Positions 28,993 through 35,071 of a DNA stretch of 64,000 nucleotides are shown here, in pieces. The DNA comes from Bosea sp. Tri-49. Its GTDB lineage: Bacteria; Pseudomonadota; Alphaproteobacteria; Rhizobiales; Beijerinckiaceae. Location of the stretch: assembly GCF_003952665.1 (NCBI RefSeq), contig NZ_CP017946.1, positions 5,103,001 to 5,167,000 of the forward strand. Reading direction: 5' to 3'. A model generated the notes under the pieces. The model did no database searches. It was not told where the DNA came from and saw nothing but the letters and a program-made list of their open reading frames with translations. Every line of letters begins with the position of its first letter. Position 1 is the first letter of the stretch. The position numbers and the translations under genes are program-made.

Positions 28993-30021
28993 TCAGCGCA
29001 GCTTCAACCGGTACTCCTCGAACTCACCGTTCTTTACCCCGTCATAGCCGACGATGATGCGTAATTCGTCGCGCTCTTCCGCCAGCACGGTGAGCGCCTC
29101 CGCCTTGGCATTCTTGCGTTGGCGCAGCTCGCCGAGCTCGCGGGCGGCAGTGGGATCGGCCGGGTCGAGCAGGACGATCGCATAGGGCACGTCTTGCTCC
29201 TGCGTCGGGCCGACGAGAACGAGCAGGCGCCCGTCGGCCAGCGTGGCGAGGTCGCGCACGCCGCGCTGCGCTCCGGCCGAAAAGGCCAGGAGTTGCGGCT
29301 TGGTGGCCGCCGGCTCGTTGCCCGGCTTGAACAGCTCGGCGACGCTGCCACCGACGAGGAAGGCACGTCCGTTGAGCGAAGGCGCGCGCAGGCCAAGCCA
29401 GAGCCGATCGCCAACGACGGCGAGGCCCTCGATGTTGAGTCCATTCGCTTCGGCGTCGAGCGGCTTGCCGAGATAAGGCGCGACCTCGCCGGCGGCAGCG
29501 AGGAGGTCGGAGACACGCCAGCTCAGCTCGGGCGCGCCGGCTTGGCCATTGCTGGGCGGGATGCGCGCCAGCAGGAAGGAGGAGGGGCGGTACTCGCCGC
29601 CATGGCGCGAGCAGCCATGCGAGCCGACGACATAGAAAGTGCGGTCGGCATAGGCGACACCCTCGCCGTCGAACTCGCCGAAGCCGCCCTGCTTGGGGCA
29701 GCCGATCGCCAGTTGGCGCCCGCTTGCGGCGGGGGCGGTGTCGCCGATGAGCGGCAGGCTGCGCTCGGGCCGGATCGTCGTTTGCGTCAGCGTCGCAAAC
29801 TGGGCCGCCTTGCTCTCATCGTTGACGACGAGGCAGCGCCATTCTCCGCCGGCAGGCGGGCGGCAGGCGATGCCGCTGATGTCCTTGGCGGCCTTGCCCT
29901 TCTTGCCGGCGAAATCGGAGCTGGCCTCGATCCGGCGCTCCGGCTTCAGCGACTCGGCAAGGGCAGGGCCGGCGGTGAGCAAGGCGAGGGCACAAAGGAC
30001 GGGCAGGGTGGCAAGCCGCAT
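28993..30021 (-). CDS. DUF3616 domain-containing exported protein
   Basis: This 342-residue protein starts at the ATG at 30021, which has GGAG 7 nt upstream and is followed by a signal peptide (MRLATLPVLCALALLTAGPA, cleaved after LAES). The mature part contains the DUF3616 features KDISGIACRPPAGGEWRCLV, VAYADRTFYVVGSHGCS and NIEGLAVVGDRLWLGLRAP. Together these suggest a beta-propeller-like fold. The family is exported and of unknown function; a phytase/esterase-like propeller is sometimes suggested. It lies 52 nt upstream of the Nudix gene on the same strand, so they may be cotranscribed. Confidence 0.85.
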   Translation of the reverse strand: MRLATLPVLCALALLTAGPALAESLKPERRIEASSDFAGKKGKAAKDISGIACRPPAGGEWRCLVVNDESKAAQFATLTQTTIRPERSLPLIGDTAPAASGRQLAIGCPKQGGFGEFDGEGVAYADRTFYVVGSHGCSRHGGEYRPSSFLLARIPPSNGQAGAPELSWRVSDLLAAAGEVAPYLGKPLDAEANGLNIEGLAVVGDRLWLGLRAPSLNGRAFLVGGSVAELFKPGNEPAATKPQLLAFSAGAQRGVRDLATLADGRLLVLVGPTQEQDVPYAIVLLDPADPTAARELGELRQRKNAKAEALTVLAEERDELRIIVGYDGVKNGEFEEYRLKLR

Positions 30022-30867
30022 GGTCTTGCTCCGATGGAAAGAGGCGAGATAGGCGTGCCGGCGGCAAGTTTCAAAGGCCGGGGTGCCAATTCTTATGCCG
30101 GGCAAAGACGTCTTGTTGCAGGAGCTGTCTTCTTCCTTAGGGATGAGTGGGGGAGTCCCTACAGCCTCCTTCTCCCCTCGGGGGAGAAGGTCCGGCAGGG
30201 GATGAGGGCGGTTCGACTGGGTGGAGACACGGCGCTGCCCTCATCCGTCAGCGCTTCGCGCTGCCACCTTCTCCCCCGAGGGGAGAAGGAAGATCGCGCC
30301 CAAGCACCATCCCCGCCCGCAGACTCATCGCGGGCGTTGTCGCAATGAGGGGCAGCGGAGCGCCGCGAGGCGCGGTTTGGTATTCCGCTTCCGTGAGCTA
30401 CGGAAGCGGCGCGGATGGATTGAGCCACCACCCGCACGCCCCGTGGCGCTCCGCCATCGGCGATTTTAAAGCTCCGGGCCGCGCTTCATTCGGATGCACC
30501 ACCGATCCCGCCCGCCGCCTTCGCCAGTTCCCCTCATCGGGTCGTCGCGTCGGCGGCCGGGCGGTTGGTCATCGACGGGCGTCCAGCTAGCGAGCTCCTC
30601 GCGCAGGGGCCGTAGTACCCCCAGGTCGGTTCCCGAAACCTCCCGAGTCCGGGGTGCAAACCCGGCCGCAGGCGCCGCACCCACCCCGCCAAACGACATG
30701 CCTCCGGATGGCCGCCCCTCGGGGATGGGATGCGGGCGAGTATACGGGAGGTCGAGAGGGCGGGGATAAGGTCGCGGACTGTCCCCGCGAGCGAGCCATT
30801 GAAGTCCACTTGCGACCCGAGCGGACCCACAAAGCGGATTGATCAGCTGTTTGAAGGCTCGACTTCG
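30022..30867. other. 846-bp gene-free region with palindromes
   Basis: Short ORFs on both strands lack family resemblance and ribosome binding sites, so I call no gene. The region contains the composite inverted repeat at 30168-30289 and a perfect hairpin CCGCTTCCGT-GAGCT-ACGGAAGCGG near 30379-30403. The segment 30480-30860 is GC-rich and unexplained; I compared it by eye with RNase P RNA, tmRNA and SRP RNA cores and saw no match. Confidence 0.5.
30168..30289. repeat. Composite inverted-repeat element (CCTTCTCCCC family)
   Basis: Left arm 30168-30190 (CCTTCTCCCC-TCG-GGGGAGAAGG, itself a hairpin) followed by GATGAGGG; right arm CCCTCATCC followed by CCTTCTCCCCCGAGGGGAGA at 30267-30289. The whole can form one long stem. 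It is a mobile-looking intergenic palindrome without coding capacity. Confidence 0.8.
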
Positions 30868-31842
30868 TCATGGCCAAACAGGTACGCCGTCCAGCCCCGC
30901 GGTTTCTGGCAGGCCGCAGATCAGATTCGCATTCTGCACCGCCTGGCCGGCGGCTCCCTTGCCGAGATTGTCGACCACGCCCATCGCGATCACCAGGTTG
31001 CGTTTCGGATCGGCCGCATAGCTAACGAATGCGAGGTTCGAGCCGGTGGCCCATTTGGTCTGCGGCGGCTTGTCGGTCACGCGGACGAACGAGCGCCCGG
31101 CATAGAAGCGCCTGGCCGCGTCCAGGCACTGGTCCGTGGTGGCGTGGCCGCGGCAATAGATGGTGGCGAGTATGCCGCGGGTCATCGGCACCAAATGTGG
31201 CGTGAACACCAGCCCGGCTGCGCTGCCGCCGCTCAGTCGCTCGATCGTCCGGGCGATCTCGGGCATGTGGGTGTGCTTGAGTAGGCTGTAGGGCACCAGG
31301 TTCTCGTTGCTCTCCGCGTAGCCGAACTCGCTGTCACCGCCCCGGCCGGCACCGGAGATGCCGGTCTTGACGTCGATCACGATATTGCCGGGCTCGATCA
31401 GCTTGTTGGCCAGCAGCGGCGCCAGCGGGGTCAGCGTCGCAGCGGGAAAGCAGCCGGGGTTGGCAATGCGGGTCCGACCCTCGATCTGAGCCGGCCAGAT
31501 ATCGGCCAGGCCGTAAGCCCAACCCTCGACGTAGCGGTGGTCGCCGCCGATATCGACGATCTTCACGTCCTTTGGGACGCGTGACAGCGCCTCGGCCGAG
31601 GCGCCCGTCGGCAGCGACGCGAACAGCACGTCGAGCTTCGGCAGGGTTGCCGGGTCCCATTTCTCGATCACCAGTTCGGCCAGCTTGGCAGGCACACCGG
31701 GGAAGCGGTCGACCAACCGGCTGCCGGCGCTGCTCTCGCGTGCGGCGTAGACCAGCTCGAAAGACGGGTGGCTCGCGACCAGGCGCAGCGCTTCGCCGCC
31801 GCCAAAACCGCTGATCCCGACAATGCCGACGCGAATGCTCAT
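30868..31842 (-). CDS. argC: N-acetyl-gamma-glutamyl-phosphate reductase
   Basis: This enzyme (EC 1.2.1.38) catalyses the NADPH-dependent third step of arginine synthesis. The 324-residue protein starts at the ATG at 31842 (AAGGA 7 nt upstream); a longer frame to 31869 runs into the terminator tail. The Rossmann motif VGISGFGGGEALRL is at residues 8-21. The catalytic Cys131 is in NPGCFPAATLTPLAP, and GISGAGRGG is near residue 155. It is monocistronic here, as usual for scattered arg genes in Alphaproteobacteria. An arginine-rich leader ORF and a terminator directly precede it, suggesting control by transcription attenuation. Confidence 0.95.
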   Translation of the reverse strand: MSIRVGIVGISGFGGGEALRLVASHPSFELVYAARESSAGSRLVDRFPGVPAKLAELVIEKWDPATLPKLDVLFASLPTGASAEALSRVPKDVKIVDIGGDHRYVEGWAYGLADIWPAQIEGRTRIANPGCFPAATLTPLAPLLANKLIEPGNIVIDVKTGISGAGRGGDSEFGYAESNENLVPYSLLKHTHMPEIARTIERLSGGSAAGLVFTPHLVPMTRGILATIYCRGHATTDQCLDAARRFYAGRSFVRVTDKPPQTKWATGSNLAFVSYAADPKRNLVIAMGVVDNLGKGAAGQAVQNANLICGLPETAGLDGVPVWP

Positions 31843-31867
31843 GATGGTGTCCTTCTGGGGTTCGGGC

Positions 31868-31903
31868 AAAAGAAAACCCCCGGAGCCGAGGGCAGCGGGG
31901 GTT
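31868..31903 (-). terminator. Intrinsic terminator in the argC leader (attenuator)
   Basis: On the minus strand, AACCCCCG (31903-31896) pairs with CGGGGGTT (31882-31875), and the loop can form an inner GCC/GGC pair. The stem is followed by TTTTCTTTT. It lies only 26 nt before the argC start and after the leader ORF, so it must be bypassed for argC expression. AGCGGCGG at the end of the Arg-codon hairpin can pair with CCCCCGCT of the stem, with one mismatch. Confidence 0.85.
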
Positions 31904-31953
31904 CAGAAACGCGAGTCGGGGTCGCTTCGGGGGCGGGACCTACGGTGAGGCAG

Positions 31954-32052
31954 TCACCACGCGGAAGGACACTGATCGACGCGCAGCCGAGAAGCCGCCG
32001 CTTGGATGAAGCGGCGTCGGCGTCGGTCGCAGAGGGTCGGGTTCCTGAGCAT
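31954..32052 (-). CDS. Putative arginine-rich leader peptide of argC (32 aa)
   Basis: The ORF reads MLRNPTLCDRRRRRFIQAAA and continues to a TGA; 8 of 32 residues are Arg, five of them consecutive (codons CGA CGC CGA CGC CGC). The Arg-codon run forms the 5' arm of a perfect 8-bp hairpin (CGCCGCTT-CATCC-AAGCGGCG). The 3' arm of this hairpin can pair instead with the ascending side of the terminator before argC. A candidate -35 TTGACG at 32084-32089 predicts a start of transcription within a few nt of the ATG, so the ORF may be leaderless, as reported for trpL of Sinorhizobium. No Shine-Dalgarno sequence is visible. An in-frame ATG at 32079 would give 41 residues. Confidence 0.6.
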   Translation of the reverse strand: MLRNPTLCDRRRRRFIQAAASRLRVDQCPSAW

Positions 32053-32139
32053 GTCCTGCGACACTGTCGTTACCCACATTCATCGTCAAGCGGAATGTCC
32101 GCTCCAAAGCAGACGATCCGAAGTCCGCGGCCGAGCGAC

Positions 32140-32178
32140 AAAAAAGCGAGCCCGCGCCGCTCTCCGAGTGGCGCGGGC
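32140..32178 (-). terminator. Rho-independent terminator of malate synthase gene
   Basis: On the minus strand, GCCCGCGCC (32178-32170) pairs with GGCGCGGGC (32158-32150), followed by TCGC and TTTTTT (32145-32140). It starts 8 nt after the aceB stop codon. It separates aceB from the argC leader, which therefore needs its own promoter. Confidence 0.92.
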
Positions 32179-32185
32179 CATTCTG

Positions 32186-33793
<1,608 letters not shown>

Positions 33794-33871
33794 GGCACTT
33801 GTCTCTCTAGGGCTACGATCAGGTGAACGCAGTATGCAGCTATCCGATTTTGTCGTGAATAGCAGAGAGTG

Positions 33872-33884
33872 TCAGATGATCTGA
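33872..33884. promoter_or_regulatory. Palindrome upstream of malate synthase, candidate operator
   Basis: TCAGATGATCTGA is a perfect 13-bp palindrome around a central G, placed 79 bp upstream of the aceB start and 110 bp upstream of the divergent SH3-protein gene. The size suits a GntR- or LacI-type site; no regulator gene is adjacent. Confidence 0.35.
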
Positions 33885-33993
33885 TCCAAAATAGAAACAA
33901 TGCCGTTTTACAGCGAAAGCAGCCCTGAATACGCCATTGCACAGGCGTGTCACGGCGCGGGGCGTGCCGGTTGACGATCAGGGGGATTTGTTC

Positions 33994-34281
33994 ATGACCG
34001 CCGCCCGCCTCGGCCTTTCCACCGCTGCGCTTGCGACTTGCCTATTTGCTGCACCAGCCTTCGCCCAGAGCCGCTGCGCCGTCACAGACCCGACCGGCAC
34101 GCCGCTCAATATCCGCGAGACGCCCAACGGCGAGATCATCGGCCGTGTCAGCAACGGCGCCGGCATCAGGGTGATGAACACCTCGTTCGACGAGCGTGGC
34201 CGGCCCTGGGCGCTGATCAGCCCGCGCGGCCGCAACCATGTGGTGGGCTGGGTCTACCGGGAATTCGTGTCCTGTTATTGA
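33994..34281 (+). CDS. Exported SH3b domain protein (95 aa)
   Basis: I chose the ATG at 33994 because GGGGGA lies 7 nt upstream and a signal peptide follows immediately (LGLSTAALATCLFAAPAFAQ). The mature part is a single bacterial SH3 domain: CAVTDPTGTPLNIRETPNGE, GRVSNGAGIRV and GRPWALISP, then GWVYREFVSCY. Cysteines near the start and end of the domain could form a disulfide. Such small periplasmic SH3b proteins probably bind peptidoglycan or proteins. It is divergent from aceB and stands alone. Confidence 0.8.
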   Translation: MTAARLGLSTAALATCLFAAPAFAQSRCAVTDPTGTPLNIRETPNGEIIGRVSNGAGIRVMNTSFDERGRPWALISPRGRNHVVGWVYREFVSCY

Positions 34282-34320
34282 GGCGGGCTGCTCGGACCAG
34301 TTGGCGACAGGATCGCGGGG

Positions 34321-34460
34321 AACCCTCTCCTGGAAGGAGAGGGCAGGGTGAGGTGTAGGCCCTGCGACCAGTTCCGCGAAACCTGACCGCGCGGTTGGGT
34401 TCAGGCCAACGTTTCCAGTCCGAACACCTCACCCCTACCCCCTCTCCTTCCAGGAGAGGG
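34321..34460. repeat. Inverted-repeat element with CCCTCTCC arms
   Basis: Left part 34321-34355 (AACCCTCTCCTGGAAGGAGA then GGGTGAGGTG) is complementary to right part 34424-34460 (CACCTCACCCC then CCTCTCCTTCCAGGAGAGGG). It has the same type of organisation as the element at 30168-30289 but different sequence. It sits between the convergent SH3 and HD-domain genes and could also terminate transcription. Confidence 0.75.
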
Positions 34461-34471
34461 GATCCCGCGCC

Positions 34472-35071
34472 CTATCCTGTCAACTCGCCGAACCGCTTCA
34501 GGAACGCCGCCTGCGCCTGCTCCGTCGCCTGCGGTTCGAGCAGCGCCAAGACCTCGCGCGGCAGGGCCTGAGGTCGACCGAAGAAGCGCAGCGCTTCCTC
34601 GCGCTCGAAGCCGGCGAGCTCGGTTGCCTCGAGGAAAGCCGAGATCTTGTCGGCATCCTTGGTCTTGCGCTTCACCACGGCCGGCGTTGCGGCCGGCAAG
34701 CCAAAGCGCAGATGGATCGCGCCCAAGAGGCGCAGTTCGACGCCCTTGTAGGCGTCGCCCATCACCGCCTTGAACGGCGAGATCATGTCGCCGATGACGT
34801 ATTCCGGCGCGTCGTGCAGCAGCCCCATCAGCCGCCATTCGCGCGGCCAGTCCGGATTGAGATGGCCGGCGATCGCCTCGACCAGGAGGCTGTGCTGCGC
34901 CACCGAGAAGGAATGGGCGCCGCGCGTCTGGCCGTTCCAGCGCGCGACGCGGGCGAGGCCATGGGCGATGTCCTCGATCTCGACATCGAGCGGCGAGGGA
35001 TCGAGCAGATCGAGCCGCCGGCCCGAGAGCATGCGCTGCCAGGCGCGCGGCGGGACAGGCAGCTTCGCCAT
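34472..35071 (-). CDS. HD-domain phosphohydrolase (YfbR-like 5'-nucleotidase)
   Basis: This 199-residue protein starts at the ATG at 35071, which shares its A with the TGA of the tag gene upstream. The HD-domain metal ligands are visible: H53 and H60 in GAHSFSVAQHSLLVEAI, H86-D87 in LLHDAPEYVIGDMISPFK and a later Asp in DADKISAFLEATEL. E90 is in the catalytic helix. E. coli YfbR dephosphorylates deoxynucleoside 5'-monophosphates, and a similar nucleotide-housekeeping role is likely. The tag-to-HD overlap indicates one operon with the glycosylase and YgfZ. Confidence 0.85.
   Translation of the reverse strand: MAKLPVPPRAWQRMLSGRRLDLLDPSPLDVEIEDIAHGLARVARWNGQTRGAHSFSVAQHSLLVEAIAGHLNPDWPREWRLMGLLHDAPEYVIGDMISPFKAVMGDAYKGVELRLLGAIHLRFGLPAATPAVVKRKTKDADKISAFLEATELAGFEREEALRFFGRPQALPREVLALLEPQATEQAQAAFLKRFGELTG

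Follow-up and report, generated by a model that had tools for sequence, protein, structure and literature searches.

We describe a second copy of argC (argC2) in Bosea sp. Tri-49 whose leader, with a probability that we put at roughly 0.9, is a ribosome-mediated attenuator that senses charged arginyl-tRNA and controls this solitary gene, the leader and argC2 having spread as a unit. The original prediction, made for the window (the whole 64-kb stretch of DNA that was analysed), had proposed an arginine attenuator on argC, and the conserved design found in relatives supports it; ribosome stalling, antitermination, the arginine response and the transcription start are what we infer. The present analysis adds four points: a probably leaderless ORF, the identity of the gene as a second, mobile argC, the existence of two old leader types, and the absence of the switch where argC2 stands beside another argC.

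In the proposed mechanism, transcription would start at or beside the leader AUG, and the peptide would be translated without a Shine-Dalgarno sequence. With ample arginine, the ribosome would pass the Arg codons and strand 2 and then leave; strand 2 would be covered or re-paired with strand 1, strand 3 would pair with strand 4, and the 3:4 terminator so formed would stop transcription about 26 nt before argC. When arginine is short, the ribosome would stall on the Arg run and cover strand 1, strand 2 would pair with strand 3 before strand 4 is made, no terminator would form, and argC would be transcribed.

The layout of the locus is given in Table 1. The elements on which the original prediction was built were found again: the 32-codon ORF encodes the peptide MLRNPTLCDRRRRRFIQAAASRLRVDQCPSAW with 8 Arg, five of them consecutive; the perfect hairpin on the Arg run, CGCCGCTT/AAGCGGCG, is present, with a folding energy of -29.0 kcal/mol (z -2.8) for a 59-nt piece containing it; a strong terminator (-21.0 kcal/mol, z -3.9) ends about 26 nt before argC; and a stable terminator of aceB precedes the leader. 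The whole 261-nt leader is only mildly stabler than its shuffles (z -1.7), 10 of 200 of which were equally stable. A consensus terminator scan listed the argC terminator and missed that of aceB.

Table 1 Features of the argC2 locus, in coordinates of the window
Feature	Positions	Strand	Remarks
aceB intrinsic terminator	32149..32179	minus	six T, T run to 32140; -26.5 kcal/mol, z -3.1
Promoter	32061..32089	minus	-35 TTGACG 32089-32084, 17-nt spacer, proposed -10 CAGTGT 32066-32061 (8 nt upstream of the leader ATG)
Leader peptide ORF, 32 codons	31954..32052	minus	ATG 32052, TGA 31954
Five Arg codons CGA CGC CGA CGC CGC	32011..32025	minus	proposed ribosome stall site and strand 1
Strand 2, AGCGGCGGCTTCTCGGCTGCGCGTCGATC	31974..32002	minus	alternative partners: strand 1 or strand 3
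Side hairpin region, present in most relatives	31915..31931	minus	competes with the lower part of the antiterminator
Strands 3 and 4, intrinsic terminator AACCCCCGCTGCCCTCGGCTCCGGGGGTT	31868..31903	minus	hairpin 31903-31873, T tract to 31868
Shine-Dalgarno-like AGAAGG of argC	31851..31856	minus	sequence; 8 nt upstream of the ATG
argC2, N-acetyl-gamma-glutamyl-phosphate reductase, second copy	30868..31842	minus	TIGR01850

The argC of the window matches TIGR01850 (288.5 bits; cut-off 233.6), and another argC of the same genome (G000:C1:1873883), near an ORF that we take to be an agmatinase gene, matches TIGR01851 (404.6 bits). The genome has more than one argC, the window gene being an extra, solitary and mobile copy. 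Within the genus Bosea, argC2 occurs in 16 of 37 genomes, that of Tri-49 included, and the identical 16 carry the leader; in one of them (G021) argC2 is divided between two contigs, and nothing beyond a 44-nt DNA match was obtained from a seventeenth genome (G015). In G030, a Bosea-genus genome rated 100% complete, argC2 is present and the other argC was not found; it may have been replaced by argC2 or missed by the assembly.

A search of named contigs for relatives of argC2 gave 224 loci, and the best 80, with 87-98% amino-acid identity, were analysed. The closest of these belongs to a Bosea sp. (98% identical), and the others are assigned to Bosea, Methylobacterium, Reyranella, Vineibacter, the Roseomonas group, Kiloniellaceae, Bradyrhizobium, Cupriavidus and others, some of the organism labels being those of metagenome bins that may be wrong. 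One locus (L105) had no upstream DNA and was dropped; among the 79 left, the terminator motif was detected in 51, and 28 are without the leader. A free alignment of the 79 upstream regions mixed two unlike groups. The alignment A1, comprising 55 leaders, leaves out L074 (no ORF start), the 28 loci without a leader and 11 leaders identical to named ones. The conservation check in relatives that had been proposed turned out favourably: the Arg run, the 1:2 hairpin, the 2:3 antiterminator and the terminator are kept in Hyphomicrobiales and Rhodospirillales (NCBI names). A conserved operon partner of argC2 was considered and rejected, no listed cluster of neighbouring genes being found at more than 7 of the 80 loci once argC itself and the overlapping frames of argC and leader had been set aside.

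The start of the leader ORF and the frame up to the Arg run are among the best-kept properties of the region. In 51 of 52 leaders (the window and 51 relatives) the Arg run is preceded, at a distance of exactly 9 or 10 codons, by an ATG, so that, by predicted translation, an ORF with codons for the amino acid made by the controlled pathway is present at these 51 loci. The spacing is 10 codons in eight Roseomonas-type leaders and 9 in all others with an ORF start, which is lost in L074. A longer in-frame ORF begins at ATG 32079 in the window; among the relatives it is ATG 32052 that is conserved as the start. In A1, the ATG and the run are separated by 27 or 30 nt, and all 55 leaders have 3-6 Arg codons in the run, its length changing in steps of 3; all length changes in this part are thus multiples of three. 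The interval between the beginning of the run and the terminator measures 116-129 nt, and every remainder occurs in it. For codons 2-9 of the common leader type, pN/pS is 0.58 in the proposed frame vs 1.17 and 0.79 in the other two. These patterns point to a coding constraint up to the Arg run. Downstream of it the frame is free, with stop codons falling past strand 2, and the C-terminus of the peptide is therefore probably not what matters. Two departures were seen in the run: it is shortened to 2 codons in an Agrobacterium plasmid leader, and one Arg is replaced by Cys in L130.

An alternative is that the leader works as an arrest peptide, sensing arginine or ornithine in the exit tunnel like the fungal arginine attenuator peptide, instead of through hungry codons. 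In its favour, the common type keeps part of its N-terminus (MLRN..LCD). The other type has a different N-terminus, for example MGDLRLRTAN, yet the Arg run is common to both, and the C-terminal part shifts frame freely between species. We give the arrest-peptide explanation very little credence and prefer stalling at the Arg codons.

The promoter also lies at a regular distance. TTGACG is present in the 16 aligned Bosea-genus leaders, and TTGAC is found 35-38 nt upstream of the leader ATG in 49 of 52 rows; among the exceptions, the value for L064 is masked by a second TTGAC, and L074 and L094 are without TTGAC. In an overlapping set from further genomes, 26 of 28 rows have a distance of 36-37 nt. 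The TTGAC-ATG distance is the same in the two leader types, which differ by one codon upstream of the Arg run. A scan for the sigma-70 consensus found no promoter, and the assignment rests on conservation, with CAGTGT as the proposed -10 box. Because the -35 box stands 35-38 nt before the ATG in 49 of 52 leaders, the ORF is probably translated leaderless, from a transcript starting at the AUG. By eye, many leaders have an AGGA-like word abutting the ATG, which leaves less room than a usual Shine-Dalgarno sequence needs.

The pairing partners of strand 2 were studied in the 55 aligned leaders. The antiterminator first proposed, AGCGGCGG/CCCCCGCT, is favoured by folding, but it contains one central mismatch and had been stated too short, its extent being about 32001-31977 with about 31918-31895. 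Another antiterminator, GGCTGCG/CGCAGCC, obtained from the alignment fold, was rejected, as folding of each sequence without the part that the ribosome is proposed to cover favours the extended AGCGGCGG/CCCCCGCT pairing. Pairs are kept in 95.5% of cells for strands 1:2, in 97.9% for strands 2:3 and in 98.8% for the terminator, and when the partner is slid by 1-3 columns only 25-79% of cells pair. Compensatory changes amount to one pair in 1:2 and to none in 2:3 or in the terminator. Covariation, which the original prediction had proposed to look for, is almost missing from the core helices and gives moderate support to the side hairpin; the core being nearly invariant, its support comes from conservation and not from covariation. 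On strand 3, column 166 is C in 40 leaders and U in 15; it has no partner in the antiterminator, and in the terminator both bases pair with the opposite G. The side hairpin, between the stop codon and the terminator, is paired in 72.9% of cells. Its columns 131-140 read G-C in 28 leaders, A-U in 16, G-U in 5 and other combinations in 6, with both sides changed in 16 sequences and a covariation score reached by 0 of 500 shuffles; other covariation measures do not stand out for this hairpin.

Each of the 55 leaders was then folded with strand 1 concealed and without strand 4, as if this had still to be transcribed. When the mask on strand 1 ended at column 42, the mean probability of the antiterminator was 0.75 (above 0.5 in 45 of 55 leaders); it was 0.86 with masking to column 45 (above 0.5 in 50 of 55) and 0.92 when the 5' end of the RNA was set at column 49. 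The mean fell to 0.23 for RNA exposed from column 40, and the model therefore requires the stalled ribosome to cover strand 1 as far as about column 42. For the leader in the window, the consensus register of the antiterminator has a probability of 0.48-0.66 if the RNA is ended at column 182 and of 0.15 if it is ended later; a slipped register competes, and in the best fold of the RNA ending at column 182 strands 2 and 3 are nevertheless paired. Weak antiterminators were found in L121, L072 and L082. In the simulation with no ribosome, the terminator has a probability of 0.94. It still wins in the stalled state at equilibrium (mean 0.78; 0.93 in the window), and antitermination must hence be kinetic, with timing deciding. 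An intrinsic terminator does lie between the ORF and the gene, and strand 2 has an exclusive choice of partner, which is weak in a few sequences and conserved rather than covarying. Taken together, the comparison of sequences shows mutually exclusive pairings in a conserved arrangement.

The original prediction had cautioned that GC-rich DNA can yield CGN runs by chance. In 20,000 dinucleotide shuffles of 31870-32100, an ATG with an Arg run appeared in 20 and together with a terminator in 0, which removes the caution for the combined arrangement; a chance origin of the leader was rejected on this count. On both strands of the 64-kb window, 6 ATGs are followed within 25 codons by 5 consecutive Arg codons. 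Of these ATGs, 4 belong to ORFs no longer than 60 codons, and only the two in-frame ATGs of the leader ORF also have a terminator-like hairpin at 60-260 nt on the downstream side. A more specific alternative is that GC-rich, hairpin-forming DNA gave rise to the Arg run incidentally and that the region is only a leaky terminator, constitutive or controlled by a protein. CGN runs are common in such DNA, the run doubles as a hairpin arm, and the core is almost free of compensatory changes, all of which this alternative would accommodate. It does not account for the ATG that 51 of 52 loci have in frame at a fixed 9 or 10 codons, for length changes that come in threes as far as the Arg run and not beyond it, for the pN/pS of 0.58 in frame, for the promoter-to-ATG distance kept in 49 of 52 rows, or for the shuffles, and we consider it very improbable. 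A phage origin was also rejected, the phage collection giving no match.

The distribution of the leader was studied with a covariance model, R1. Strong matches were found in 3 of 385 genomes of the class (that of Tri-49, G340 and G418), in 31 of 75 genomes of the family f92, in 4 of 397 of the order and in 2 of 398 of the phylum, the four samples overlapping. All 35 strong matches compared with the positions of argC2 lie directly upstream of it, and the leader is linked to the argC2 type of argC. This position is that of a cis element and bears on another alternative, in which the main product would be a trans-acting small RNA from the terminated leader, like rnTrpL, with attenuation secondary. 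The near-invariant core would suit such an RNA, and a leaderless attenuator RNA with a role in trans is described for S. meliloti in the part of the source cited here (PMC10117765). We hold this to be highly unlikely as the main function, an added role in trans being possible, and retain attenuation of argC2 in cis. Among the weak matches in the class, nine loci were examined and comprised two genuine leaders, the decayed L158 and six loci without a leader. Other weak or doubtful matches were rejected: L208 and L209 from the order scan on inspection, and, from the f92 scan, L200 and L201, which are leuA leaders, and L199, a decayed argC2.

Family f92 is read as Reyranellaceae because several of its leaders match named Reyranella loci; NCBI places Reyranella in Hyphomicrobiales, and the f92 genomes are grouped here outside the order of Bosea. 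In this family argC2 is present in 45 genomes and the leader in 31, 28-43 nt upstream of argC2. None of the 31 leader-bearing copies adjoins the other argC. In the 14 without leader, the other argC lies 102-481 nt upstream on the same strand in 8, 1.1 kb away in 1 and elsewhere in 5. Fisher's exact test of tandem arrangement against leader gives p 1.4e-5, which is not a true probability since the f92 genomes are related. The switch is thus absent in f92 where argC2 follows the other argC, and absent too in some solitary copies. Several leaders of f92 are identical to leaders of the named set (52 leaders), and because of this overlap the two counts are not independent. As a separate observation, a gene read from sequence as a GNAT-like acetyltransferase adjoins argC2 in the attenuator-less loci L204, L070, L076, L085, L091, L097, L106 and L114; in L204 it stands between the other argC and argC2.

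Roseomonas-type and common-type leaders both keep the ATG spacing, the Arg run, the hairpin and the terminator. The two types are 58-61% identical and the argC2 genes behind them 90-93% (0.81-0.86 at 4-fold sites), and so the leader types seem, on these identities, to have parted before the genes were exchanged. In 11 of 11 common-type relatives, the identity of the leader core to the window exceeds that of the 4-fold sites of argC2; this was so in 0 of 3 Roseomonas-type relatives, whose leaders are less like the window than their genes are. In many loci the leader and argC2 occur together with differing flanks, and some relatives have flanks in common, aceB being upstream in L052, L053, L059 and L095. 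Agrobacterium leguminum, Methylobacterium aquaticum and Roseomonas haemaphysalidis each have the leader-argC2 unit on a plasmid, and plasmids of two Paracoccus and one Paraburkholderia carry argC2 with no such leader. The Agrobacterium leguminum copy (L160, on pTiCFBP4996), with its two-codon Arg run, lies between catabolic genes of fatty-acid type. Two decayed copies were also seen: in L158 (G418:C1:2589077-2592184) the leader runs into an argC tail, and L199 (G470:C102:6600-8200) consists of a terminator and a broken argC start.

A tentative reading, which we find possible and rather doubtful, is that leader and argC2 form a self-contained, transferable rescue cassette: a silent spare ArgC, turned on only when arginyl-tRNA is short. 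It would need no host regulator, hence its presence in distant hosts and on plasmids, and the switch would be dropped when the gene joins an arg operon of the host. If this reading is true, the trigger could be, for example, a resident ArgC that is inhibited or outpaced. If the attenuator is confirmed, arginine would join the amino acids with leader-peptide attenuators, here moving between bacteria with a spare enzyme, and one would have to ask why a second argC, turned on only when arginine is scarce, is present in many bacteria.

Several known systems resemble parts of this leader. The leuA, ilvB and his leaders of proteobacteria combine regulatory codons, alternative hairpins and a terminator before a biosynthetic gene. 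The argC2 leader has the same layout and differs from these attenuators in the amino acid; its promoter-to-ATG distance is nearly that of a leuA leader in two f92 genomes, 36 nt (by eye); we know of none among them that is part of a mobile spare gene. The survey of proteobacterial attenuators by Vitreschak and others (2004) reportedly lists no arginine case. The fungal arginine attenuator peptide also involves an upstream ORF and arginine, and it is eukaryotic and acts on translation by arrest of the nascent chain. In a T-box, the RNA binds a tRNA and no ORF is translated, unlike in the argC2 leader, which is also without an Rfam match. A cmscan of 30000-34500 against Rfam (E up to 1) gave three matches, none of them within the leader; a T-box riboswitch and a known Rfam leader family were rejected as candidates, neither the T-box model nor the curated leader models matching there.

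The open-access full texts searched, to which most subscription papers do not belong, contained no arginine-biosynthesis gene under an Arg-codon attenuator that uses an intrinsic terminator. Neither the word argC nor the word arginine is present in the main text of a survey of premature terminators (PMC2965389) or in that of a paper on alphaproteobacterial motifs (PMC1273637). The nearest known case is orf34 in the Salmonella speF leader, in which consecutive Arg codons sense arginine; as far as the cited part of that paper goes, it differs in serving a polyamine gene, in Rho-dependent termination, in the involvement of RNA structure and RNase G, and in having two consecutive Arg codons, and its family is a DUF2618 (PF10940) peptide before an ornithine decarboxylase gene (PMC6386406). 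A leader of this type was rejected here, the 32-aa peptide having no Pfam match up to E 10 and the gene being argC. The trpL/rnTrpL system of Sinorhizobium meliloti, another alphaproteobacterium, is similar in being an amino-acid attenuator with a leaderless leader-peptide ORF, whose RNA also acts in trans; in the sections consulted it concerns tryptophan, trpE and a 14-aa peptide, whereas the argC2 leader concerns arginine and has a longer ORF running through strand 2 (PMC10117765). RNA control of arginine genes is likewise found with T-boxes, which the cited portion of one survey mentions for arginine genes outside Actinobacteria, reporting no RNA element at actinobacterial arginine operons (PMC1262725). 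The carA motif of betaproteobacteria, an RNA motif before a gene serving arginine and pyrimidine synthesis, is an extended imperfect hairpin, and the excerpt cited mentions no Arg-codon ORF like that of the argC2 leader (PMC8632094).

Some minor observations concern the surroundings of these leaders. In the window, 30137-30350 and 34217-34470 are alike low-complexity stretches, perhaps a dispersed repeat, with Rfam microRNA matches far below thresholds. About 50 nt past the argC2 stop, many common-type loci (for example L049, L067 and L113) contain an imperfect inverted repeat, GCGGGCCTCC ... GGAGGTCCGC, and beyond the conserved argC2 tail the flanks differ, by eye, among many loci. The leuA leaders L200 (G446:C23:79000-80800) and L201 (G448:C1:992500-994100), which precede a gene read from its translation as leuA-like, encode the Leu-containing peptide MIWRLRSLRLIAAGL, with TTGAC 36 nt before the ATG (by eye) and a hairpin like that of the arginine leader; a common origin of the arginine and leuA attenuators is possible.
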